A stretch of 64,000 bases of DNA from Telopea speciosissima (lineage: Eukaryota > Streptophyta > Magnoliopsida > Proteales > Proteaceae): NCBI RefSeq assembly GCF_018873765.1, contig NC_057924.1, positions 3,534,001 through 3,598,000 on the forward strand, in the 5' to 3' direction. Within the stretch, counting starts at the first letter, position 1, and the number at the start of each line of letters is the position of its first letter. Positions 1,391 to 63,300 of the stretch are shown piece by piece. Position numbers and translations under genes: made by a program. Under the pieces are notes generated by a model, which was not told the origin of the DNA, searched no databases, and saw only the letters and a program-made list of their open reading frames with translations.

Positions 1391-1864
1391 TTATTGATGA
1401 TGGAGGTGAGTACAACCAGTGGATCCAGGGGCACAAAGATCCTGAATCCAAAGCATGGAATTTGGCCAATCTGTCTCGTACTCAATCGACAGAGCCTTCC
1501 TGGCTAGGGCATCCGAAGCGAAGTTCTTATCCCTAGAAACAAAAGAAAAGGAGATGGAAGCAAAAAGCAACCTAAGACGTTGTACATCTGAAATAATATC
1601 TTCCACCTCCCAAAAGGGGTCCTTCCACCCTTCAATAAAATAGATCGCCTCCTTACTGTCTGAATGGACAATCAAATGCAACACCCCCATCTCCTGAGCT
1701 AAGATAAGGGCATTGCGAATAGCTAGGAGCTCTCCTTGAATCACTGAACCAAGAAGCTGAGGAGAAGAGCGCGCCTTCACACATTTTCCTATATGATCTC
1801 TAAGCATAATGCCCAAGCCACCCTTACCAGAGTCAGCCACAAAGGCTGCGTCACAATTTGCCAA
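1391..1864 (-). pseudogene. LINE ORF2, C-terminal RNase H (RVT_3)
   Basis: This is an RNase H domain of the plant RVT_3 type. All four acidic positions can be placed: Asp in NCDAAF, Glu in QGELLAIRNAL, Asp in VHSDSKEA and Asp in FASDALARKAL. The frame ends at 1391, about 15 bases before the poly(T) run that marks the element's 3' end. The domain itself looks intact, but it is cut off from the RT by breaks. Confidence 0.88.
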
Positions 1865-2922
1865 TATTGACCCAATTGGAGGGGGGCTCCAGCAACTATC
1901 GCACTGGAAGTGATACCTGAAGAAGCTGATAGGGAGCTGGCTTGAGGAGTATCAATCTCAGAGAACTCCAAATACGCCTTGTTCGCCATCTGCAAGACAT
2001 CCAAAGGGGACCAAGCCTTCCCACCCAAAGTTAGCTCATTTCTTGCGCGCCACAAGTACCAGCAAATAAAAGACGCTCTAGATAGAGAGGAGCGAGCACA
2101 TCTCTTGTCTTGCTTGAACCATAAATCCCAACCACGGAGCCAATCCACCACACTAGGATCCTGAGGAGGCGAGAATTGTAGAACACTACCAAACCAGACA
2201 CTCCGAGCAAAATCATAGTAAAAAAGAATGTGATCACCTGTCTCCTGTTGAGCTCCACACCTCAAACAACTGGAATCCACATTAATATTTCGTCTCACCA
2301 AACCGTCACCCGAAGCGATGGCATCATTGCAAACCCTCCATAAAAAATTCTTGATTTTTGGTAGTGTTTGTATGGACCAAATTCGATTCCAAACAGCACT
2401 TGGAATGAGCTCCTAGCGTCTCGCTCTAGAAGAAGAGGCTCTAGCCGAGGCAATCTCTTCACTCCTTTGAACAAGCAGCTGATACGTAGACTTCACCGAG
2501 AACGTTCCATTTTTTGATGCACCCCAGCACCTCTTGTCTTCAGACTGAGTGAGACCCAAAGGGATTTTCAATATAGCAACTCTGTCCTCAGGTTAAAAAA
2601 CAGACCTTATAATATCTACATTCCATCGCCTATTCTGGTGATCAATCAAATCAGCTACATACACAAGCTCACAGCCAACCGGTTTTAATCCTTGAATTTT
2701 GAACTGAGGAAGAGAGGGAACCCATCTGTCCTCCCAAATTTTGATACTTAAACCATCACCCACCTTCCAAATCAGCCCTTCAAGAAGCACCTCACGACCC
2801 ACAAGTAAACTCTTCCATCCCCAGGAGGGACAATTTCCACCTTTTGCAGTAAAAAAATCACCTTGTGGGAAGTAAATAGCTTTCAAGAATTTAGCCCAGT
2901 GGGAATTAGGAGAAGACCACAA
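1789..2922 (-). pseudogene. LINE ORF2, zf-RVT region
   Basis: The 2922-2593 segment (FLKAIYFPQGDFF...GWKSLLVGREVLLEGLIWKVGDGLSIKIWEDRWVPS) is the typical plant L1 stretch after the RT. The 2301-1789 segment has the zf-RVT pattern SSCLRCGAQQETGDHILFYYDFARSVW. It continues to the tryptophan-rich WYLWRARNE linker that precedes RNase H. The segments are separated by stops or frame changes between about 2590 and 2300. Confidence 0.85.
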
Positions 2923-2978
2923 ACGCCACGCTGCCTTGGCTAGAAGGGCTCTGTTTTGAAGATGGGAGTCCTTAAAGC

Positions 2979-4942
2979 CTAACCCCCCCCCCCCCCACTC
3001 AACTTTGGTTTACACAATCTCTCCCAAGACATCCAGTGTATTTTTTGCTTATCCTCTGTGCCGCCCCAATAGAATCTTGCCGAAGCTCTCTTAATAGAGT
3101 CATAACAGGAATTGGGGAGTTTAAAATGAGAAGAGGCATAGTTCACCATCGGCGCCACTACTGCCTTAAGCAACACCTCTTTCCCTAGATGTGATAATAA
3201 CTTTTCTTTCCACCCCTGCAACTTCGAGATCGTTCTTTCTTTGATATCATTAAAAACATCCTTTTTTGATACCCCAAAGTGGGTAGGTAAACCCAGGTAT
3301 TTTGAAGGTCCCTCACCATGCCTCACTTTTAGAATTATGAAGAACCATCTTTTTATTCTCTCGTGGGTATTAGGCCTGAAAGTCTGGCTAGACTTATGGA
3401 AATTAACAGCCTGCCTTGTAGCACTGCAATAAAGATCTAAACACTCTTTTAAAGAGTTAACTTCATGGTGGTTGACTCTGGAAAACATGAGACAATCATC
3501 AGCAAATAATAAATGGGTTATAGCTGAACCCCTATTCCGCACCCTCACACCCTTTAAAACACCATTGTCCTCAGCTCTTTTGATAACTGTAGACAAAGCC
3601 TGAGAACACAGAATAAAGATGGCTGGCGAAATGGGGTCCCCCTGTCTTATCCCTCTAGTGGGAATAATCGAACCCTTGATGCAACCATTAATCAACAAAT
3701 TATATGAAACTGAAGTTATGCAAGCCATCACTAAGCGGATCCAATCATTCCTAAAGCCAAGCTTAAGGAGCATACCTTCAATGAATCTCCAGTCCAGTCT
3801 ATCATACGCCTTACGTATGTCTAACTTTAGGGCCAGGAACTTTTGTTTCCCTTTCTTCTGCTTCTTGATGTAATGGAAGAGCTCATGAGCCACCATAATA
3901 TTATCTGAAATAAGCCTGTTAAGAATAAAGGCCGATTGAGCAGGCTCAATAATCTGATCCAATTCCCCACTAAGCCTGTCTACTATAAGTTTTGTAACAA
4001 TCTTAAAAGCAATGTTACAAAGACTAATCGGCCTGAATTGGTCTGCAGTTTCTGGAGTATGGACTTTTGGAATAAGGCAGATAATAGTTTTGTTTAACTT
4101 TTTAGGAATCTGACCTGTGGAAAAAATCTCCTTCATCAAGTCTACCAAATCATCCTTCAGTCTCCCAATATTTTTGGAAAAAAAGAGGGGGAAAACCATC
4201 CGGCCCTGGTGCTTTAGTAGGAGCCATCCTAAATAGAGCATCATGAACCTCTTTCTCCAAAGGCATGGAACAAAGACTATTATTTAAATCATCCGTAACC
4301 ACCGGTTGCACTGCCTCCAAGACCAAAACCAAAGCATTATTATTAATAGGTTGTGAGGAGTACAAATCTTGAAAATGTTTACATAAAATATTAGAAACTT
4401 CTGCAGGGGTAGAAGACCAATCGCCTGTGGTGTCCTTGAGCTTCAAGATCTTATTCTGATGCATTCTCCTAAGGGTGGTGACATGAAAAAAAAAGCTGTA
4501 TTTTTATCCCCACCTTTCAACCAATCCACCCTGGATTTTGTCTCCAAAACTCTTCTTTTTGTAGCTCGGTGTCTAGTAATTTTTGTATCTTTGCTTCCTT
4601 CTCCTGGGAATAGAGGGAAAGAGGTAGACTTTGAACATGAGCCAACTCAGCTCTTAAGGCTTTAATATTCACAAAAATATTACCAAAAGTCTCCACATTC
4701 CACTTCTTGAACACTCCACAGCTATAAGATATTTTGGTCAAAACTTTCCTTGAAGCCGAGCCTCCAACAGGGATGGACCAAGCCTTAGAAGCCACCTCCT
4801 TACACTCCCCATGAAGAGTCCACATGGACTCAAATCTAAAAGGCCGAGTTCCCTTAGTCCTGCCGCCATCAGTGTCAATGACAATAGGGCTATGATCTGA
4901 GCTAATTGCTGGTTTGATGAACACCGCAGCCTTTACAAATGC
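2979..4942 (-). pseudogene. LINE ORF2, linker and reverse transcriptase
   Basis: This block covers three frame segments. The first (4924-4517) finishes the endonuclease and ends at KEEFWRQ, where plant L1s normally continue toward 'WLKxGDKNTxFFH'. The second (4464-4150) carries TKAPGPDGFPPLFF. The third (4244-2979) has the RT core: LIPKV, QFRPISLCNI, SAFILNRLISDNIMVAHEL, KLDIRKAYDRLDW, RQGDPISPAIFIL and the catalytic LFADDCLMF. Phase changes near 4.5 kb and 4.18 kb, and a run of C at 2987-2999 read as Gly codons, break the frame. This is a copy damaged by small indels. Confidence 0.9.
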
Positions 4943-5560
4943 CTATCTCCACGCCGGATTGCACATAACTCGATCGAAGCAAATTCTAATATTCTCCGCA
5001 CCTTTCCTTCTATTATTCCAGGTGTATGGAGATCCATGGAAACTTAAGTCCAAAAAATCACAGCTTTGCATGAAATTTCTAAACACATCACCATCATAAT
5101 TTGCTCTCTTGGACCCTCCCTCCTTTTCGTGCCAAGTCAGGTACGAATTGAAATCGCCAAAGCATAACCACTCTTTATTATGGTGATTTAGAGCAATAAT
5201 CCTATTCCAGACTGCACTCCTCCTATGCTTTAGAGGGTCTCCATAGACACACGTGAGAAAAAAGGTTGGAATGTCTACTGCACTCACCTCAGCATCAAAG
5301 AAGTTTGTATCAGCCACTAACACAGAAATCTGCACATTATCCTTCCACAATAGAGCAAGACGGCCCGAAGTACCAATAGGGTCCACAGTAACACAATTTG
5401 TAAAGCCACCTTTCCTTCTAATCTTTTCTATAGCAATAGACTTACACTTTGTCTCCATTAAGAAAAGAATACTCGGGTTCTCAGCTTTGAGGAGGTTAAA
5501 AAGAGAGCGAACTGTCGAGGGTCCCCCCAGCCCCTGACAGTTCCAACCAATCATTTTCAT
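4943..5560 (-). pseudogene. LINE ORF2, endonuclease domain
   Basis: It begins MKMIGWNCQGLGGP, the standard start of plant L1 ORF2, with the endonuclease Asn in WNCQG. Further endonuclease motifs follow: the metal-binding Glu in FLMETK, then CVYGDP, CFGDFNSYL and FHGSPYTWNN. The family nicks target DNA before target-primed reverse transcription. The frame stops at an amber codon (TAG, 4943-4945) after CNPAWR. The same frame continues past it with the end of the domain, where SSDHSPI carries the conserved Asp-His pair. A single C-to-T change from CAG would explain the stop. Confidence 0.9.
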
Positions 5561-6200
5561 TGTCTCCCATGGAGCTGGAACTCTCCAGCCTCCACGAGGG
5601 TAGATGATAAAAAAGGGCCATCATTTCTTGTAACTTCTTGAGCCTCTTCCTCACTGCTCCTCAGCCTTTTTAAAGGTTGTTGCTGCCCAGAATTGGATGG
5701 AGTATCGCTTTGCTGGTGAGCCACGTTGGTAACAACATGGGTCGTGGGTATGTGAGACGAGGAGGGTACGGCTTGGGAATTTGAATTATTGTTTGAAATG
5801 GAACATCCCGAGAGGTGGGGGAGGAGAGCAGAAAGGGCAAGTGTCATTTCAGGGGTGTTGGGTAGGTGGGCAAACATGGAAAGAAGATGTTTATTTTGAG
5901 ATTCATTTCCATGCAAACTCAACGGATTTAAGGTTGCTAATGGAGGGATATTAAGAATGGGTTGGCCAGCTGGGATTGAATGTTGATTGGGAGTAATGGG
6001 GGGGGATTTGAAAGCTATTGTCAATAGAAAAGGAAGGATTATTGTAATTGGTAAATGAGGGTAAAACGGGTTTAAGGCTACTACTTTTGTTAAGGCTAGA
6101 TTGGTGGGGCAGGCCATGAGGAATGGATGTAGAGCCCTAGAAATTCGGGACACCGGCACTGCTGTCACCTGCCGGAGATTGACCCCTCTACTGTGGGAGG
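5557..6200 (-). pseudogene. LINE ORF1 C-terminal tail, shifted frame
   Basis: This low-complexity frame is rich in Pro, Ser, Asn, Thr and Leu and has no ATG of its own near its beginning. It continues from ORF1 in another phase and ends in TGA at 5557-5559. That TGA overlaps the ORF2 ATG at 5558-5560 as ATGA. A 4-base stop/start overlap fits termination-reinitiation or tight coupling of the two LINE proteins, although this copy is inactive. There is no catalytic domain. Confidence 0.65.
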
Positions 6201-7075
6201 TGGTTATCCATGGTTGACTGCTCTTGAGACTTTGGGAAGATAACTGCTGTAGACTCCAGAAGTCTCATATCCGAACTAGGACAGCGAAGGTAGGGAGGAA
6301 ATCTTCTCTTTACAAACTCTGGACAATTAATTAAGTGAGCACACTGATGCCAAACTTTGTGATTTGCTTCGTCCTTGAATGCTACTCGACATCGCTGATC
6401 ATCATGTCCGATCTTCCCACAGTAATAACAGAATAACGGCAAGCGTTCATACCTTATCTCTACCACTTGCTCTAAGCCACTCCTCCTCTTGATCTTCAAA
6501 GACTTCTTCAGAGGCTTCGTAACATCCACGTTAATGCGAGCCCGGAAGAAAGAGAGTTTCTGACCTCCTCTAACTCCATTCACAGATAGGATCTTTGAGA
6601 CTGCACCCAACTTACTGATAAATTTTTGGACCAAGCCATGGTCGTGTAATTCAATGGGGAGATCATGTATCTGGATCCACATCTCAGTAAATTTAAACTC
6701 CCAGTCTTTCGAAGCCTTCCATCTCTCCAGAACAATTAAATTGCTCGCCACTGACCAGGGAGTCTCATTGAGAACATTAACAATATCCATGGCATGACCG
6801 AATTTGAAGAGATAAGTGTCAGGCTTCAAGGGAGATATAAGGACTGGGGCTGAAGTATTCCAAGCATTTGGGAGAGCCTCAGTGACCGATTGCCTGCGAT
6901 ACCTTCTTTCGGCAATGATAAACCCAGCAAGGGTAAGAGATTCAGAGTGCTCGATGCGATCCTCAATCTCGTCATCAACTGTAAAGGAGTCTTCGTCTTC
7001 CAGATCTTCTTCTTCTCTATCAGGGCTTGCAGTATTCGCATGAACTGGTGGGAGAGGCAACAAGGATGGATCCAT
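6188..7075 (-). pseudogene. LINE ORF1, nucleic-acid-binding protein (DUF4283 + CCHC)
   Basis: The frame starts at the ATG at 7075 (MDPSLLPLPPV) and runs 295 codons. An acidic N-terminus is followed by a DUF4283-like region (TYLFKFGHAMDIVNVL, then ERWKASKDWEF) and a zinc knuckle CYYCGKIGHDDQRC about 70 residues before the stop. This is the ORF1p type of plant L1 elements, which binds element RNA. The stop at 6188 looks premature. The next open frame (5557 to about 6200, another phase) has the Ser/Pro/Asn/Thr-rich composition of a plant ORF1 tail and ends at the start of ORF2. I infer a frameshift near 6.2 kb in what was one longer ORF1. Confidence 0.85.
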
Positions 7076-7236
7076 CTTCTGCAAGTCGAAAGAATAATGA
7101 TGAACCAGACATCAACACTCCGACAGGAGGAAAAGGAGCACGCCAGAAGGATGGTGGAATTACCTCGATAAGTGAATTCTTTTTGTCATTAAACAAAAAG
7201 AAAGCATAAGATTAAACACTAAAGGGCCAATTTTTT

Positions 7237-8714: not shown

Positions 8715-9770
8715 TGGTAATTTACACATACCACCCCTAAGGTTTACAAACGGTAACAAATAAACCCATTCCGTCAGTTTATGACTAACACTGTTAAAAT
8801 CAAAAGTGAAAGTGACAAAAATGCCCCTTCAAGAAAAAAAAAAAAAAACCTGCAACTCATCTTCCCCAATCGCAAATCGATTGGGGAAGATGATTTGCAG
8901 GCTATAGATAGAAGGTCTGTCCATTAGAACAGCAAGCCCAGCTTTGTCTCGACAAGGGAGCAACTTCAACCAGGGAGTTAGGTTCTCAGTAAAAACAACC
9001 TCCCGTGGCAAAGCACCATATCTAAGGGTACCCGAGAATGGTCGAAAGCTCCAATGTGGAGAAGCATAAACAGTAGATGATTCCAAGAAGTTAATCGAAA
9101 CACAGAAGAGACCCGAGAAGGTGTGGGTCAGATTTTTCCAGGTTGAATCGACCTGATCAGGGGGACATCGAAGACAGCCCACAACTCAACTCCGGGAGGT
9201 TTCGCATTTGCGTTGAATACAGGATCAAATCCACCCCATCGTTCGTAGTTCCAGCGACCTTGCGCGAATGACAACTCCATCTCACGAATCCAGAATTTTT
9301 TAACCTAATCAAAACAACATAAAATCCCATTAGTTATTACTCTTTGAACTTAAACTGCAGTTTTGAAGATGGTAACAATTAACAAACTGTAGATTGTGAA
9401 CAGAAATAAAGCTGATCGTAGAGTTAAATGCAAAAGCTAGAACACAGATACAAATGGGTTAAAACCTAAAGCAAATGGAAGAGGGAAAGGAAAGAGAGTG
9501 AATCAAGATCGGTTCCATGGTGTTCCCTACAAAGATACCTACAACTTATCTTCCCCAAATCGATTTGGGGAAAGAAAATGAGTTGCAAGTTGTTTTTTTT
9601 TCCTTGAAGGGGCATTTTTGTCACTTTACCTTTTGATTTTAACAGTGTTAGTCATAAACTGACGGAATAGATTTATTTGTTACCGTTTGTAAACCTTAGG
9701 AAGGCACGCAAAATTTTTCAAAACTAAGGGTAATATCATCCTTTCGTCAAACCTCTGGGGTAGTACAACA
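8715..9770. mobile_element. TIR element carrying a PIG-T gene fragment (Pack-type)
   Basis: Arms at about 8736-8834 and 9603-9700 are near-perfect reverse complements. They contain CTAAGGTTTACAAACGGTAA, a TTATGACTAACACTGTTAAA core and GGGGCATTTTTGTCA. Each side also carries an inner local hairpin of CTTCCCCAAATCG type (about 8862-8898 and 9549-9575). The roughly 640-bp interior is a host gene piece with exon and intron sequence on the minus strand. This is the structure of Pack-MULE or other Pack-TYPE DNA transposons, which capture gene fragments between TIRs. The outermost ends and the target duplication are not clear, so the superfamily is not assigned. Confidence 0.75.
8905..9304 (-). pseudogene. 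Captured fragment of PIG-T (GPI transamidase subunit)
   Basis: Reading leftward from an AG acceptor at 9306-9305, the exon encodes EMELSFAQGRWNYERWGGFD, then KPPGVELWAVFDVP. After a one-base frame change it continues DQVDSTWKNLTHTFSGLFC, FLESSTVYASPHWSFRPFSG and TENLTPWLKLLPCRDKAGLA, ending at MDRPSIY where element sequence takes over. These segments are characteristic of the Gpi16/PIG-T family, which helps attach GPI anchors to proteins in the ER. Intron-like sequence (9305 to about 9530) is retained upstream, so capture was from genomic DNA, not a spliced copy. It has no start, no C-terminal part and a frameshift. Confidence 0.85.
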
Positions 9771-18359: not shown

Positions 18360-18384
18360 TGCGGTGAGCGTGGATCGAACACGC

Positions 18385-18427
<43 letters not shown>

Positions 18428-18432
18428 CCCGC
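18360..18432 (-). tRNA. tRNA-Phe (GAA)
   Basis: The minus strand gives a complete cloverleaf starting GCGGGGATAGCTCAGTTGGG, with anticodon loop ACTGAAGATC (anticodon GAA), T arm GTGTTCGATCCAC and 3' end TCACCGC plus discriminator A. It is 73 nt without CCA and has no intron. The G5-A68 acceptor mismatch is, to my knowledge, a normal feature of plant cytosolic tRNA-Phe. AAAAA at 18351-18355 reads TTTTT just downstream and would stop RNA polymerase III. Confidence 0.97.
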
Positions 18433-18435
18433 TGA

Positions 18436-18509
18436 TGGCTTCGCCCGGACTCGAACCGGAGACCTTCAGTGTGTTAGACTGACGTGATAACCAACTACAC
18501 CACGAAACC
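18436..18509 (-). tRNA. tRNA-Val (AAC)
   Basis: The minus strand reads GGTTTCGTGGTGTAGTTGG with anticodon loop GTCTAACACA (AAC), T arm CCGGTTCGAGTCCGG and 3' end CGAAGCC plus A. It is 74 nt without CCA and has no intron. The acceptor stem pairs with one G-U. Its 3' end is only 3 nt from the 5' end of tRNA-Phe and no T run intervenes, so both should lie in one primary transcript. Just upstream are CAACAAG and, about 30 bp further, an AT-rich TATA-like stretch, both usual for plant tRNA genes. Confidence 0.97.
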
Positions 18510-28121: not shown

Positions 28122-28679
28122 TTCGCTTGATTTCCCTTGCAACCAAACTGAACCATAATGTTGTCTTAGCTATGGCCCTGGAGTATAACCCTAACTCATG
28201 CATGTTGGACAGTCAAAAATTTAGATTTGCATTCATTTACTGATATTTTGGGATATTTTTTTAGCATCTTAATGATAATCGTGTATAAATTCAAACTATC
28301 AACACTATTCGCTTGATTTCCCTTGCAACCAAACTAAACCATAATGTTGTCTTAGCTATGGCCCTGGAGTATAACCCTAACTCATGCATGTCGGACAGTC
28401 AGAAATTTAGATTTGCATTCATTTACTGATATTTTGGGATATTTTTTTAGCATCTTAATGATAATCGTGTATAAATTCAAACTACCAACACTATTCGCTT
28501 GATTTCCCTTGCAACCAAATTGAACCATAATGTTGTCTTAGCTATGGCCCTGGAGTATAACCCTAACTCATGCATGTCGGACAGTCAAAAATTTAGATTT
28601 GCATTCATTTATTGATATTTTGGGATATTTTTTTAGCATCTTAATGATAATCGTGTATAAATTCAAACTATCAACACTA
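28122..28679 (+). repeat. Tandem triplication, 186-bp unit
   Basis: Three copies start at 28122, 28308 and 28494 with TTCGCTTGATTTCCCTTGCA and end CAAACTAYCAACACTA. The spacing is exactly 186 bp each time, and a few bases of a fourth unit (TTTGCTTTG) follow at 28680. By eye the copies differ at only a handful of positions, so the duplication is recent. Non-coding. Confidence 0.95.
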
Positions 28680-28714
28680 TTTGCTTTGAAATGTACAACT
28701 ATTAATAAAATTAT

Positions 28715-49184: not shown

Positions 49185-49675
49185 CAAATCCACAACTGGG
49201 TCACCAAGCAAGCTCGGTCCTGTGAACTGGAGTTCTAGTGAAGGTTCTCAATCGGAGTTGAGAATGACCAATTTTTTGAGGACTTCTAGGCGACCTTTGC
49301 TTCCTCTGTAATTTTGTTACACTATCATTGAGTGAGTTCTCAAGCATTGTAATTTGTAAAGCATTTGAACTTAGGCTTTGTAGGATCTGATGTAATAAGG
49401 TAAATTTTGCATCTTTCTATTCATGCTTGGATTGAAATTCCAAACATGGCAGTAATGAAACCACCAAACCAGGTTTTCCATTATTGGATTCTTTCCTCAT
49501 AAAATTCCATTCTTGGCATCTGTAAGAACTTTCTTAAATAAATAAGAAAAAGGGAAAATAGGGAGGAAACACAGAGAAGCCTCAGATTGCCACTTAACAT
49601 CAGAGGAAAATTCAGACGGTAATTCCAACAAAATATCAAGTAATATCATCATAGGCTTCAACCAATAAACAGAAG

Positions 49676-49706
<31 letters not shown>

Positions 49707-50248
49707 AATAAACTCAAAAATCTATTTCGAATTAAAAACAAAAATGTTATCGCAGAAATCGGCTCCGTGGATGAATTGATATTAATGAAATCCACAGGTT
49801 CCTATCAGCATACGAAACTTGATATTGGTCCGATCATAGCATTGCCGGTCATTGCCATTCTTTATGATTCACTACCGTCAACGTGGCATCAGACCCTTTT
49901 TCCTCCTTCAAAGAGGAAAGAAAGAAAGAGATAGAGAAGGGGAAGAAGAAAAAACCGAGAAAAACTGAAAAGATAAAACCCTTCCAAATCACACACGCAA
50001 CGGAAACCAAACCAAAATCCTTAACGGAGAGAGTCAGTCTACCAAAAAAATATTGAAACGACTCAGAAAAGGAAGTGCTGTATATCACTGCAACATGCGA
50101 CAGATTTGCAGCCAAACCAGCGAAAATAACCATATAAAAGAAAGGAATTTTCACTTTGGTGATCCAAGTAAGGAACCCAGTTATATAGACATTCGAACCC
50201 TAACGGGCATCGAAAACCCTGAACCCTAATCAGCGTTGTGGATCGATT
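49185..50248. other. NAT 3' UTR and spacer
   Basis: Downstream of the NAT stop codon are AT-rich sequence, several AATAA-type words (49396, 49545) and an A run at 49678-49701. No further gene could be supported. Confidence 0.4.
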
Positions 50249-57305: not shown

Positions 57306-60300
57306 TTGTTGGGGACAAATGCTTAACCAAGAGGAAGAAACCAAGCAAACAATTACACACAACACGGGGAATTTAATGTGGTTCGGCACGAGTGCCTACA
57401 CCCACCCAGGGGAACCAAAGATTTTTCACGAAGACAGAAAACTCTCTACACCACTCTCCACCTCACAAAGTGATCTCCCTTTGCTTGTATCTAGGGTTTT
57501 CCCCACAAAGACAATATATAGGAACCCTAGAACCCTAATCCCCGCACAATTACAATTTTACATTTGTACATGTAATGATGTTAGATTATATGGGCCAGAA
57601 TACCGTGGGGGTATTCTGGACTTTTTCTCCTTTTTTATTATGTCTTGTATGTGTGGTTTAGTCCCACATTGCTTATGTAATTATTTTTCATACCTCATTA
57701 TGAATATAAATAGATGTTTTTGGGATGATAATTAATCATCCAAGCATTCAGCCTAATTCTGATCTCTTAACATGGTATCAGAGCAAGCAGGGGTCACGGT
57801 ATCGAGTCCCCCTCGAAGCGGGCAGATGTTAAAAAATTATTTATCCACCCGTGTCCCCCTTTGGATAGTCTGCCGTGTTAAAAGCTCCTGTATGATATAC
57901 ATATTGTTTCCTCCCTTTCCTACAAGGTCGGTCTTTTAGAGAAAGCGGTTTCTACACCACCATTACCTTCTCCGCTACACCAAAGCTCTTTGGTCTCTTT
58001 TGAACTCTACCAGTGGCATTCTCAGTTAGGTCACCCCTTTTTAGGAATTTTAGCTCATTTATTTCCTAGTTTGGTCACCCTACGTACTAAGGATGACCTT
58101 TTTTGTGAGGCTTGTGTTCTGGCCAAACAGACACGTTCAACTTATCCACTTTCAAATAAAAGGAGTTCTTCTTGTTTTCAATTGGTGCATTCTGATGTTT
58201 GGGGTCCTAGTCGTAGGACTTCTCTTTCTGGTCATCGTTGGTTTGTATCTTTCATTGATTGTCATTATAGGAACACCTGGGTGTATCTTTTGCACACAAA
58301 AAATCAGGTGTTTTCATGTTTTCAGCATTTTCATAAAATGATCCAAACTCAGTTCCAAGCTACTCTCAAAATATTGAGAAGTGATAATGGAACCGAGTAT
58401 ACTGAATCCCAATTTCAAAAATATTTGGCTGATCATGGAATTCTTCACCAAACTAGTTGTGTTGATACCCCTGCCCAGAATGGTGTGGCAGAAAGGAAAA
58501 ATCGCCACTTATTGGAAATGGCCAGGGCTTTGTTGTTTGCGCGGAATGTCCCATCTCAATATTGGGGGGATGTGGTTCTAACTGCAGCCTATCTCATCAA
58601 TAGGTTACCTTCTCGGGTTCTTAACCCCCGTAGCCTCTCTGATGTTTTACTGGGTCATTCCTCCTTTATTGTGCCTCCCAAAGTATTTGGGTGTGTGTGT
58701 TATGCTAGAGATACCAGATCTCCAGGCAAACTTGAACATAGGGGCCTCCGTTGTATTTTCTTGGGTTATTCTCCAACTCAGAAAGGTTATAAGTGTTACA
58801 ATCCCCCTTCCCGCTGTACCTTGGTTAGTATGGATGTTGTTTTCCATGAGACCCTTTCTTATTATTCTTTATCACTTCTTCAGGGGGAGAGTTCTAGTAA
58901 AGATGTGTCTCTTGAGATTCCTCCACTGGAGGTTCCTCTGGCTGCTGCCCAGCCTCTTTTACCACCACCCACGGCTGCTGCCCAGCCTCCTTTGGATGCT
59001 GCCCATCCTACTTTAATCAATGCCCAACCTCCTCTGGCTGTTCCTCCCTCACCTAACGGAAATCCTTTACAGGGGGAGACCATAGAAAATAGTGTTGTTA
59101 ATGTTCCTATTCAGGGGGAGCTGACTCCAGTCCAGAGAACTATTGGTGAATTTCAGAAGAGAATTGACAACTCCAACATACTCACCTATACAAAGAGTAG
59201 AACCAACAGAGGGCAGCTGCAATCCACTTTAGCACCAATACCCATCCAATTGCCGGATCCAGATCCAGATTCTCCATCTCCTGGTAATCCCTCTTCTTCC
59301 GACCTACCTATTGCTCATCTCAAAGTTATTAGGACTTGCACTTTACATCCCATATCTCGTGTTGTTTCTTATAGTTCTCTTTCTCCCTCTTTTCGTGCTT
59401 TTGTATCTTCTCTTTCTTTTGTTTTGATTCCTAAAAATTGGCAGGAAGCATCTATAGATGGAAAGTGGAAGGCAGCAATGTTGGAAGAAATGAGAGCACT
59501 ACATAAAAATAATACATGGGATCTTGTGGCTCTTCCTCCAGGGAAAAAACCAATTGGATGTAAATGGGTCTTTGTGGTCAAACAGAAGGCTAATGGTTCT
59601 GTGGATTGATATAAGGCACGTCTGGTTGCAAAGGGGTTCATTCAAACTTATGGAGTTGATTATTAGGAGACCTTTGCACCAGTGGCAAAGCTCAACAGTC
59701 AACACTGTCAGGGTGTTATTATCTTGGGCTGTAAATCTTGGGTGGGATCTTCAGCAGTTAGATGTAAAGAATGCCTTACTCCATGGGGAGCTTGAGGAGG
59801 AGGTATATATGGACATTCCACCAGGCTTCTCTAATGACAAGACCAAGGGTAGGGTCTGTAAATTGAAGTGTGCACTTTATGGGTTGGAGCAGTCACCTAG
59901 GGCCTGGTTTGGCAGATTTTACAAGGCCATGATTTCAGCAGGTTATAAGCAGAGCAATGCTGATCACACTTTGTTTATCAGACGAGTTGGTGACAAGGTA
60001 ACTCTTCTCATAGTCTATATGGATGATATTGTGATCACTGGTAATGATGGTGATGCTATCAAGAATTTAAAGCTCTTCCTTGGCCGTGAGTTTGAAGTAA
60101 AAGATCTTGGCCCTCTAAAATATTTTCTAGGGATAGAAGTTGCTCGATCTTCGAAGGGCATCTTTCTATCTCAAAGAAAATATATCCTTGATCTATTGAG
60201 TCGAGACTCGGCCGCTAGGTTGTCATCCTTCGATACTCCTATGGAAGCTACTACAAAACTTAAGGAGAAAGAGGGTGAACCTGTTGGCAAGGGTTGTTAT

Positions 60301-63300
60301 CAGCGATTAGTGGGCAAACTAATCTACCTCTCTCACACACGACCTGACATAGCTGTTGCTGTAAGTTTGGTGAGCCAGTTTATGCATGACCCCTATTCCT
60401 CACATATGGATGCAGTCCGTCGTATTTTGTAGTATTTGAAGTCTGCTCCAGGAAAGGGAATTCTTCTCTCTCCCAATGGTCACCTGAAGATTGAAGCTTA
60501 TACTGATGTCGATTGGGCTGGTTCTACTGACAGAAAATCTATCTTTGGCTATTGTTCCTTTGTGGGTGGGAACCTTGTCACATGGCGTAGCAAAAAGCAG
60601 AATGTTGTGGCTAGGTCCAGTGTTGAAGGCGAGTTTCGTGCTATGGCCCAAGGAATTTGTGAACTTTTATGGCTTAGAGGATTATTGCAGGATATCGGTG
60701 TTGCTGTCCATCTTCCCATGTTGCTTTATTGTGACAATAAAGCCGCCATTAGCATTGCTCATAACCCTGTCCAGCATGATCGTACTAAGCACGTGGAGGT
60801 TGATCGACATTTCATCAAGGAGAAGCTTGAAGCCGGACTTATTTGTGTTCCCTTTGTGAAGTCTACTGACCAACTGGCTGATGTGTTCACTAAGGGACTA
60901 AGTGGCAAACGGTTTCTTCCTATCTTAGTCAAGTTGGGCATGCATGATATCTATGCTCCAACTTAAGGAGGAGTGTTAGATTATATGGGCCAGAATACCA
61001 TGGGGGTATTCTGGACTTTTTCTCCTTTTTTATTATGTTTTGTATGTGTGGCTTAATCCCACATTGCTTATGTAATTATTTTCCATTCCTCATTATGAAT
61101 ATAAATAGATGTGCTTGGGATGATAATTAATCATCCAAGCATTCAGCGTAATTCTGATCTCTTAACAACCCCATACTCGATCCAATTACGAAGACAAACC
61201 CAATAATAATTAAGTGGATTTGCAGAATACAAGACACACCCAATACTATGTTTAATACATATCAGAGGTAGACCTTAGTACTTTGGTCCTGTATTTTCCA
61301 TCACTGGGACTAAATTTTAATCTGGAAAAATATCTGTGGTTTTGCAGAATATTGATTTTATTATGCTCTAACAAATGACTATAATTATCTGCTCAATTGT
61401 GTATTTCATGTTTTTTCAAGTTATTTTATCCTCAATCACTGAATGCCTGCAACACAGGGAAATGCCTAAGTTTATTTATTTATATATATTTTTGGGTTTT
61501 TCCCTTGACATTTTACTGAACTTATGCTTCCAGTATGAGTAATTATACCTTGCTTTCTGCTTTTTTTACTCTGCAGAGACTTACAGTCCTATCTTTCACA
61601 TCTTAGCCTTTTTCTTCCCCCCGAGACTAGAAAATTATATATATTGGTGGACAACCGGCCATGGAAAAACTTGGATTCCCGGGCTGCACACCTGTGGCAG
61701 TTGATGGTTACCAAGGTTAGAACAAATTCCCTCATGTTAACATTCTTATCACTCTTTTGTTGATTGAGAGAAATGACTTCTTTCCCCTTTCTTGGGGTAC
61801 GAAAGACATGATAAGTTTAATATATATTTTTCTGCAGTCCAGATTGTCCCCATTTGCAAACACTAAAATGCGACAGAAGAGAAAGGATTTTGGAAAGAGG
61901 CTTGATTTGAATAGTGGTCTCAGTTCTAACACGAGTAAAGTGAAAAAATTTGAGAGATGGTTCCGATTGATTGAGAGAGCAACATCATCACGGAAGAATG
62001 CTTTGCTGCCTGTGAAAAAATTGAAGAATTCTTTTCTCTCAAGCCATGACTTGTATCGGACCCTGTATGGATTTATTGTTTTTGAGGTTGCATGGGCTGA
62101 TGTCCGTGGTATTAACTATCTGAATGAGCTTCAGGTATTCATTCAGTCATTCTCTCTCTCTCTGCTTATTGCACCAATTTTTTTTTTTCTCTAGCTACTG
62201 TTGCCCATAAAAATTCTGTATCCAATTTCAGACAGATACATCAGTGGCATTAGAGGCTAAATTTATGAAGCGCTGGGAGTTTGATAGTGTACAACAAGCT
62301 GCAGCATCAGTTTCTGCTTGGTTCTCTGGGACACAATCTGAACATATTCTCTTGCAAGAATATCTAAGTTCCATCATAGGTAATCCCTTGGACTACCATA
62401 CTTCTTGATTTAGTTAAGGGGAAGACATATATGGGAAGGAGGTCATCCTTCCCTGTCTGTGCAGTGGCTCAGATTTGTGGGGTTTCAACCTTGCCACCAA
62501 ACACAAATGACAATGTAGCACTAAGAATTTGTTGGCCCAAATAATTAATTTTCTTTTTACATTAAAGAACATTGTAAAGGTGAAAGCTTGGTTTAATGTT
62601 TATGCCTTGAAGTTCAGTAGAAGTCTTTTTTTGTTATGAGGAGGTGTATATGATATTTCAAAAAAGTTTATTTTACTATATAATCAAACACTCATTATTT
62701 CTATATTAATAGCTCATTAGTTTTCATTTATAACTGTCAATATACTATAACGTCAAACAATAATCATAGGTAGCTGATATTAGAGCTTATTAGTTTTTTT
62801 TTATGGAACAAATTTGTTTCATGAAAGAATTATAAGTGTTAGATACTATTACCTTATTACAAATTCATGTTGGATGGCTGGCTATTAGATACCTGATTTC
62901 TTCATGTTGGACAGCTGGTTATTAGATCCTTAGCAATGCATTTACTTCCTTTATCTCAGATCTGATCACAGATTTGATCATTCGGCCTGCTTGCATCTGA
63001 GATCCATAATCTGAATTTTCAGATTGCATCATACTTTCCTGGAAAGTTATTTTAGTTGCATTCCTCACTTGGTGTGTTCTAGGCACTTGAATGTATTCCA
63101 TAAGAGCATGGGCAGGAAGCAAGGTTTAAATTATCGGTATCGTGTTTCGTATTGGTGGGGTGATTTTAAGAGACGTACCATATCGAAGATACGTATCGCA
63201 CGCTACAGATACGCATGGAAATGTTCCAGATACACATAGAAATACACTTTTGGAGCAAAAAACAATATAAATAAGCAATATTGCAGTTTGTTTCCTTAAT

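Follow-up and report, generated by a model that had tools for sequence, protein, structure and literature searches.

A PIG-T gene fragment carried by a Pack-MULE family in Telopea speciosissima

How did a piece of the PIG-T gene come to lie between two inverted repeats in the genome of Telopea speciosissima? The window, by which we mean the whole 64-kb stretch of DNA analysed, is C9:3534001-3598000 of an 823-Mb genome in 1287 contigs. A preliminary description had proposed near-identical inverted arms of about 100 bp here, with minus-strand PIG-T sequence between them; the arms (8736-8846 and 9590-9700) are indeed 111 nt long and 95% complementary, and lie 743 nt apart. We consider it very probable, at roughly 95%, that this feature is a dead copy of a Pack-MULE whose family captured PIG-T sequence, spread, made a second acquisition and exchanged its arms. 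The parts of the window element are given below.

8715..8848, plus strand: left TIR arm, outer part and A-run, internally deleted compared with other copies (TIR-position matches and family ends)
8849..8901, no strand: left hairpin, a subterminal palindrome belonging to the family TIR, with the left capture junction at its inner edge
8902..9304, minus strand: PIG-T exon 2, 5' part, as captured; a 1-bp gap in a G-run shifts the frame (profile and native-gene alignment)
9086..9087, no strand: site of the extra ~553 bp of the long form (546 bp of another MULE-like element plus short filler), empty in the window
9305..9446, minus strand: PIG-T intron 1, 3' part, as captured; the 3' splice site is preserved (alignment to the native gene)
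9447..9460, no strand: 14-nt junction filler, with no match to the native gene or the inner TIR arm
9461..9537, minus strand: inner TIR arm, found at both ends of the sister elements L083-L085 and only at the right end of PIG-T elements
9538..9589, no strand: right subterminal palindrome (hairpin), partly decayed
9590..9765, minus strand: right TIR arm, with the outermost 14 bp of the TIR lost

The limits of the element were set by alignment to the ends of other copies (GGGTAATTTACACATACCACCCC...), which placed it from 8715 (8715/8716) to 9765. The span of 8715-9770 proposed earlier was therefore close, but the right end has lost its outermost 14 bp: the right arm matches TIR positions 15-178 at 9765-9603, and positions 1-14 are gone. 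The left arm matches TIR positions 2-31 at 8716-8745 and positions 58-178 with an end at 8833, and is internally deleted, with part of the TIR missing from about position 32 on. Because the outermost right end is lost, no target duplication could be read for the window copy, the best 9-mer having 5 mismatches. TIRs of the family are long, the outer arm with its palindrome measuring ~240 bp and reaching ~310 bp in sisters with symmetric inner arms. The ~1,050-bp window element consists of TIR, palindromes, PIG-T sequence and 14 nt of filler, with no transposase, and is non-autonomous. The stretch 9447-9534 was considered as a third captured gene and rejected, since 9461-9537 is the inner TIR arm.

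Other repeats and genes are present in the window. Pieces of a LINE lie at 1789-7084 on the minus strand (reverse transcriptase, endonuclease-like and zinc-knuckle ORFs), and a Copia-like element at 57579-61167 (integrase and reverse transcriptase ORFs), both named by eye from translations. Two 194-bp direct repeats, 95.4% identical, flank the Copia-like element, and its terminal repeats look short. A tandem repeat with a unit of ~186 bp and ~97% identity between copies occupies 28122-28686. Positions 49574-49895 and 18360-18509 hold two side-by-side minus-strand snoRNAs of different kinds (snoR77Y and snoR2/U65) and two adjacent tRNA genes.

The identity of the cargo was established with profile PF04113 (Gpi16), which matched minus-strand sequence at 8901-9158 (profile positions 110-202, E 6.1e-30) and at 9161-9304 (profile positions 62-108, E 4.5e-9); a 1-bp deletion puts the two matches in different frames. 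The minus-strand PIG-T segments recognised earlier between the arms were thereby borne out. The preliminary description had looked to an intact parental gene elsewhere in the genome, and a native PIG-T gene that does not flank the element was found at C3:71272009-71276497 on the minus strand, on another contig than the window; among the best 76 of 123 candidates, the later parts of PF04113 were present only there (three matches, profile positions 61-559). Window 8902-9446 is 91% identical to the native gene. These 545 bp comprise 403 bp of exon 2, carried from its first base (9304) to 8902, and 142 bp from the 3' part of intron 1 (9305-9446). The cargo is thus exon and intron as first described, but only part of each, and PIG-T sequence ends at 9446, where filler and inner arm begin. 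Upstream of native PIG-T (L049 7380-7700), repeats in both orientations were noticed by eye; these are perhaps other TIR elements near the promoter.

PIG-T pieces were present at at least 47 loci besides the native gene (39 and 7 from two genome searches, plus L082), and since the searches scored the best candidates only (40 of 105 in one PIG-T search), copy numbers are lower bounds. The 47 loci divide into 7 short copies, the window included, 39 long copies and one unclassified copy (C8:58112071). We read 33 of them (7 short, 26 long), and 13 more were classed as long by their ~560-bp gap spacing. One further likely long copy, C2:13566705, stands outside the count of 47.

All 33 copies that were read have a gap in one common G-run of the PIG-T exon, although such a gap could arise more than once, and the left junction is GTTGCAGG|CTATAGAT, or a slight variant of it, in 30 of the 33; in L051, L065 and L082 this junction is deleted or rearranged. 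The shared gap and the shared junction make it most likely that one capture founded the PIG-T family.

Arms were paired in other copies as well, as the preliminary description had expected, many of them with 9-bp target duplications. Both ends were measured in 29 of the 33 PIG-T copies read (all but L054, L055, L062 and L071). Of these 29, 14 carried a perfect 9-bp duplication at the expected position and 19 carried one with at most 1 mismatch, the row for L068 spanning a nested element and not being meaningful. Among family members without PIG-T from a TIR search, the duplication was perfect in 10 of 13. Some duplications are runs of A or T and are little informative (L026, L072, L074). Two loci 18 kb apart, L024 and L030, have one common target duplication, and L054 and L055, 36 kb apart, have an identical further insertion; given these common features and the close spacing, each pair is probably one insertion duplicated along with its surroundings. 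Long TIRs, target duplications of 9 bp (9-10 bp) and a host gene fragment are, by the usual definition and in part by PMC3310237, the marks of MULEs and Pack-MULEs, and the 9-bp duplications together with the long TIRs led us to assign the family to the Mutator-like elements. With the parent elsewhere, the arms paired and 9-bp duplications in many copies, the Pack-MULE class suggested at the outset holds.

The same evidence bears on whether the window sequence is instead a native PIG-T pseudogene, or a segmental duplicate, lying between inverted repeats by chance. The PIG-T sequence is real and frameshifted, which would suit a pseudogene, but the same piece recurs at at least 47 loci, with like left junctions in 30 of 33 copies and with 9-bp target duplications, and the native gene is on another contig and reaches past both junctions. 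We give this explanation practically no credence, and a native gene or pseudogene in the window is refuted by the common junctions and the target duplications.

The TIR family extends well beyond the PIG-T copies. Allowing up to 3 mismatches, the outer 41-mer was found 1333 times (659 forward, 674 reverse) and its reversed control 0 times; at two ends per element, this indicates a family in the hundreds at least. Divergence between the two TIRs of an element had a median of 0.063 across 27 PIG-T copies and of 0.062 across 14 others. A search for an autonomous partner with these TIRs turned up none: the MULE domain (PF10551) had at least 150 genome matches (the best 150 of 827 candidates), none linked to these TIRs, and one 6.7-kb inward-facing TIR pair contained a hAT dimerisation domain in its middle 2 kb.

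In the Pack-MULE reading, a MULE with long TIRs copied 545 bp of native PIG-T, from the end of intron 1 and the start of exon 2, into its interior, presumably through a break in the element followed by repair synthesis with template switching. In the capture, the left inner TIR arm gave way to PIG-T sequence as far as the palindrome edge, and the 14 nt of filler stayed at the right junction. By eye, no microhomology is present at the PIG-T capture junctions, and template switching there is for this reason something that we infer. The element then spread by transposition, with transposase probably supplied in trans.

Long copies have ~553 bp extra between window positions 9086 and 9087, made up of 546 bp matching the inside of an unrelated MULE-like element and a short filler. 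When the insert was searched for in the genome, its first 4-9 bases were unmatched in 15 of the 40 best-scored matches, and those 15 places are not PIG-T loci. One of the 15, L077, was read and is a different element with GGGAAAATTT ends, its own target duplication not being clear; it is the donor of the insert. Donor and element have CTTCT in common at the entry point, a 5-bp microhomology. At the exit point the element has TTTTGGGC, 8 nt of filler absent from the donor there. Intron gain or loss was considered for the 553-bp difference and rejected, because the native gene is continuous at this site and the piece matches the inside of another MULE-like element.

Short copies, like native PIG-T, are continuous at the insert site, the flanks abutting with a gap of 0 in 7 of 7, and the 26 long copies that were read form one clade (UFBoot 97). 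The capture of PIG-T came first, giving the short form, and the 546-bp piece was then copied into the PIG-T exon, giving the long form. The opposite order, with the window copy and the other short copies derived from a long copy by loss of the 553-bp insert, would agree with the short copies being few (7 of 46 classified) and forming no supported group (UFBoot 33, low). It would, however, need a seamless loss of insert and filler from within a single long clade, while the window copy is native-like at the site, without filler, and none of the seven short copies has a gap; we hold this order to be very improbable. With the short form first, one descendant took up the 546 bp from the unrelated element, entering at CTTCT and leaving through the 8 nt of filler, and this long form now accounts for 39 of the 47 copies, the majority.

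Further insertions are nested in some PIG-T copies. A MULE-like insertion with ends GGGAAAATATCATCCCCC lies in the PIG-T intron piece of L054 (from 1796) and of L055, and the long PIG-T copy at L068 harbours, at 2436-5904, another element of this TIR family, 3.5 kb in length and with fragments of a 2OG-Fe(II) oxygenase.

PIG-T copies carry outer arms of two kinds, T (GGGTAATTT, GATGATTTTACC) and A (GGGAAATTT, ATATTTTCACC). Both ends were of one kind in 27 of 27 PIG-T copies in which both arms were compared, by a motif test with T as default; as exceptions, L065 and L067 start with GGGTAATTT at one or both ends and are otherwise A, and the right end of L069 is poorly placed. The 13 A-type copies form one clade (support 94) inside the long clade, with L062 and L071, which had no outer-arm match, counted as not A-type. 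In the sisters L083 and L084 the outer arms are of the A kind, and each end has a palindrome and the same inner arm. Later, one long lineage appears to have exchanged its outer arms, at both ends, for those of another TIR subfamily; recombination with a sister would be the simplest route. An element like L083 or L084 would be the simplest source, because A arms, palindrome and inner arm are in common. The donor of the arms would have shared the palindrome and the inner arm with the PIG-T element.

The preliminary description had also reported hairpins beside both arms that the capture did not explain. Folding confirmed that they are real: the left hairpin (8849-8901) folds at -26 kcal/mol (z -11.9) and the right (9538-9589) at -10.5 kcal/mol (z -4.5), with 0 of 200 shuffles as good in each case, and across five palindrome examples z was -9.7 to -11.9 in four, again with 0 of 200 shuffles each. 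They are no longer unexplained, however. A palindrome of ~47 nt, in its majority form CCTGCAACTCATCTTCCCCAAATCGATTGGGGAAGATGAGTTACAGG, stands at the inner end of the outer arm, and was found in 67 of 71 arm rows (4 of which come from loci taken twice) and in 32 of the 34 rows from 19 loci without PIG-T beside the arm. Since members without PIG-T also have it, the palindrome is, on these alignments, part of the family's terminal TIR module.

The hairpins might instead have been made by the capture, as duplicates of one central palindrome of an empty ancestral MITE. It is unusual for TIRs to include an entire palindrome at each end, and L032 has a single palindrome between two arms, as such an ancestor would. 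L032 nevertheless reads as a larger member that has lost internal sequence, the palindromes occur at 19 loci without PIG-T (32 of 34 arm rows), and the exact one-palindrome pattern gave 0 matches, a result of little weight because the pattern was strict and allowed no mismatches. An origin from a single palindrome is in our view improbable. Upkeep of the palindrome by paired changes was also considered and rejected, its variable ends seeming not to co-vary in an alignment inspected by eye.

Family members with other cargo were picked by their arms, using the arm, the palindrome and 4 nt beyond as the query. The Pfam matches were these.

L033: malectin-like domain, E 2e-12
L035: legume lectin domain, E 1.2e-17
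L047: LRRs, E 3.6e-14
L037: ribosomal eL29, E 7.9e-23
Element nested in L068: 2OG-Fe(II) oxygenase, two matches, E 2.7e-5 and 8.5e-5

In L021, L025, L031, L038 and L048, of each of which one frame was scanned, there was no Pfam match, nor was there one in three further frames scanned of the L068 nested element. Judging by these matches, members of the family appear to carry differing gene fragments, as Pack-MULEs do.

The positions at which the sequence classes diverge lie just inward of the palindrome. PIG-T begins at +0 and the TTTCAAAACC arm at +0 to +1, the TATCCCCATCG and TATCCTTGTAGGG arms diverge from each other at +5, and the L068 nested element departs from TATCCTTGTAGGG at +7, so that five classes (PIG-T, the TTTCAAAACC, TATCCCCATCG and TATCCTTGTAGGG arms, and the 2OG-oxygenase element) part within 7 nt of the palindrome's inner edge. 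By eye, the A-type arm exchange seems to finish near this edge too. We tentatively raise the idea, which we think rather unlikely, that the palindrome is an exchange point at which the family gains and swaps cargo: extrusion or a replication stall would lead to a break at the inner edge, and repair synthesis would join gene fragments, arms or transposons there. More plainly, the arm needed for transposition may simply end at the palindrome. Both readings fit the present data. With a break point at the palindrome, the family would offer a mechanism by which capture recurs; without one, it is a Pack-MULE of the ordinary kind, well resolved.

We also examined whether the cargo has been under selection. 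Singleton substitutions in the exon numbered 97 nonsynonymous to 30 synonymous, against an expected ratio of 2.78:1 (p 0.55), and singleton density was 0.0101, 0.0101 and 0.0091 at codon positions 1, 2 and 3, and 0.0109 in the intron. With the ratio near expectation and the exon density similar to that of the intron, recent changes, those found in one copy each, bear no mark of protein constraint. Pooled dN/dS was not 1 in either comparison, at 0.67 for the copies with one another and 0.46 for the copies with the native gene, and the latter value includes constraint on the native branch. Alternatively, the antisense PIG-T piece could have been kept for small-RNA regulation of its parent gene, a role proposed for Pack-MULE cargo (available part of PMC3310237) and one that the many copies would suit; the sequence is without constraint, however, and across the aligned piece the copies share 91-95% identity with the parent, at which targeting would be limited, if still possible. 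We regard such retention as quite improbable. There is no sign of a selected protein from the cargo, and a putative effect on the host would be exerted by way of RNA or of the insertion itself.

The way in which Pack-MULEs acquire fragments of genes is a matter of debate. The PIG-T family resembles the Pack-MULEs of rice, maize and tomato, as presented in the available part of PMC3310237, in its long TIRs, its 9-bp target duplications, its chimeric and non-autonomous structure and its host fragment with an intron. It differs from them in the palindrome inside the TIR and in a second cargo taken from another transposon. For tomato, 29 copies are given for the tandem-TIR element with the highest copy number, and 1 to 14, with an average of 3, for single-TIR SLMULE46 elements (PMC3310237, available part); unlike these counts, one cargo is present at at least 47 loci in the PIG-T family. 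Pack-TYPE elements of maize and rice, as far as the accessible text of PMC8903248 goes, include several superfamilies of DNA transposons that capture coding DNA, with content from several loci, and their clusters of related copies reach more than 100 elements (hAT and PIF, maize). The copy number of the PIG-T family is therefore not exceptional.

The Pack-TYPE model, in the same accessible text, has neighbouring insertions mobilised jointly (PMC8903248). The second acquisition of the PIG-T family, unlike this, lies inside the first without TIR remnants, and for this reason copying by template switch would fit it better. Gap filling, or fork stalling with template switching, has been proposed for metazoan Pack-TIRs, with short microhomology and with breakpoints at internal fragile sites (PMC8277862, available part); the PIG-T family differs in being a plant MULE with a palindrome at the capture edge. 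Among the literature matches listed, there was no mention of a Pack-MULE carrying GPI transamidase, PIG-T or Gpi16, or of one in the Proteaceae (Macadamia, Telopea). The family combines, in one genome, a capture from a known parent, a second capture whose donor and microhomology are known, an exchange of arms and sister copies by the dozen, and since these steps can all be read, models of capture are testable on a single lineage. Compared with known systems, the PIG-T family is a clear example of a known gene-capturing kind, the Pack-MULE, with an unusually readable history.
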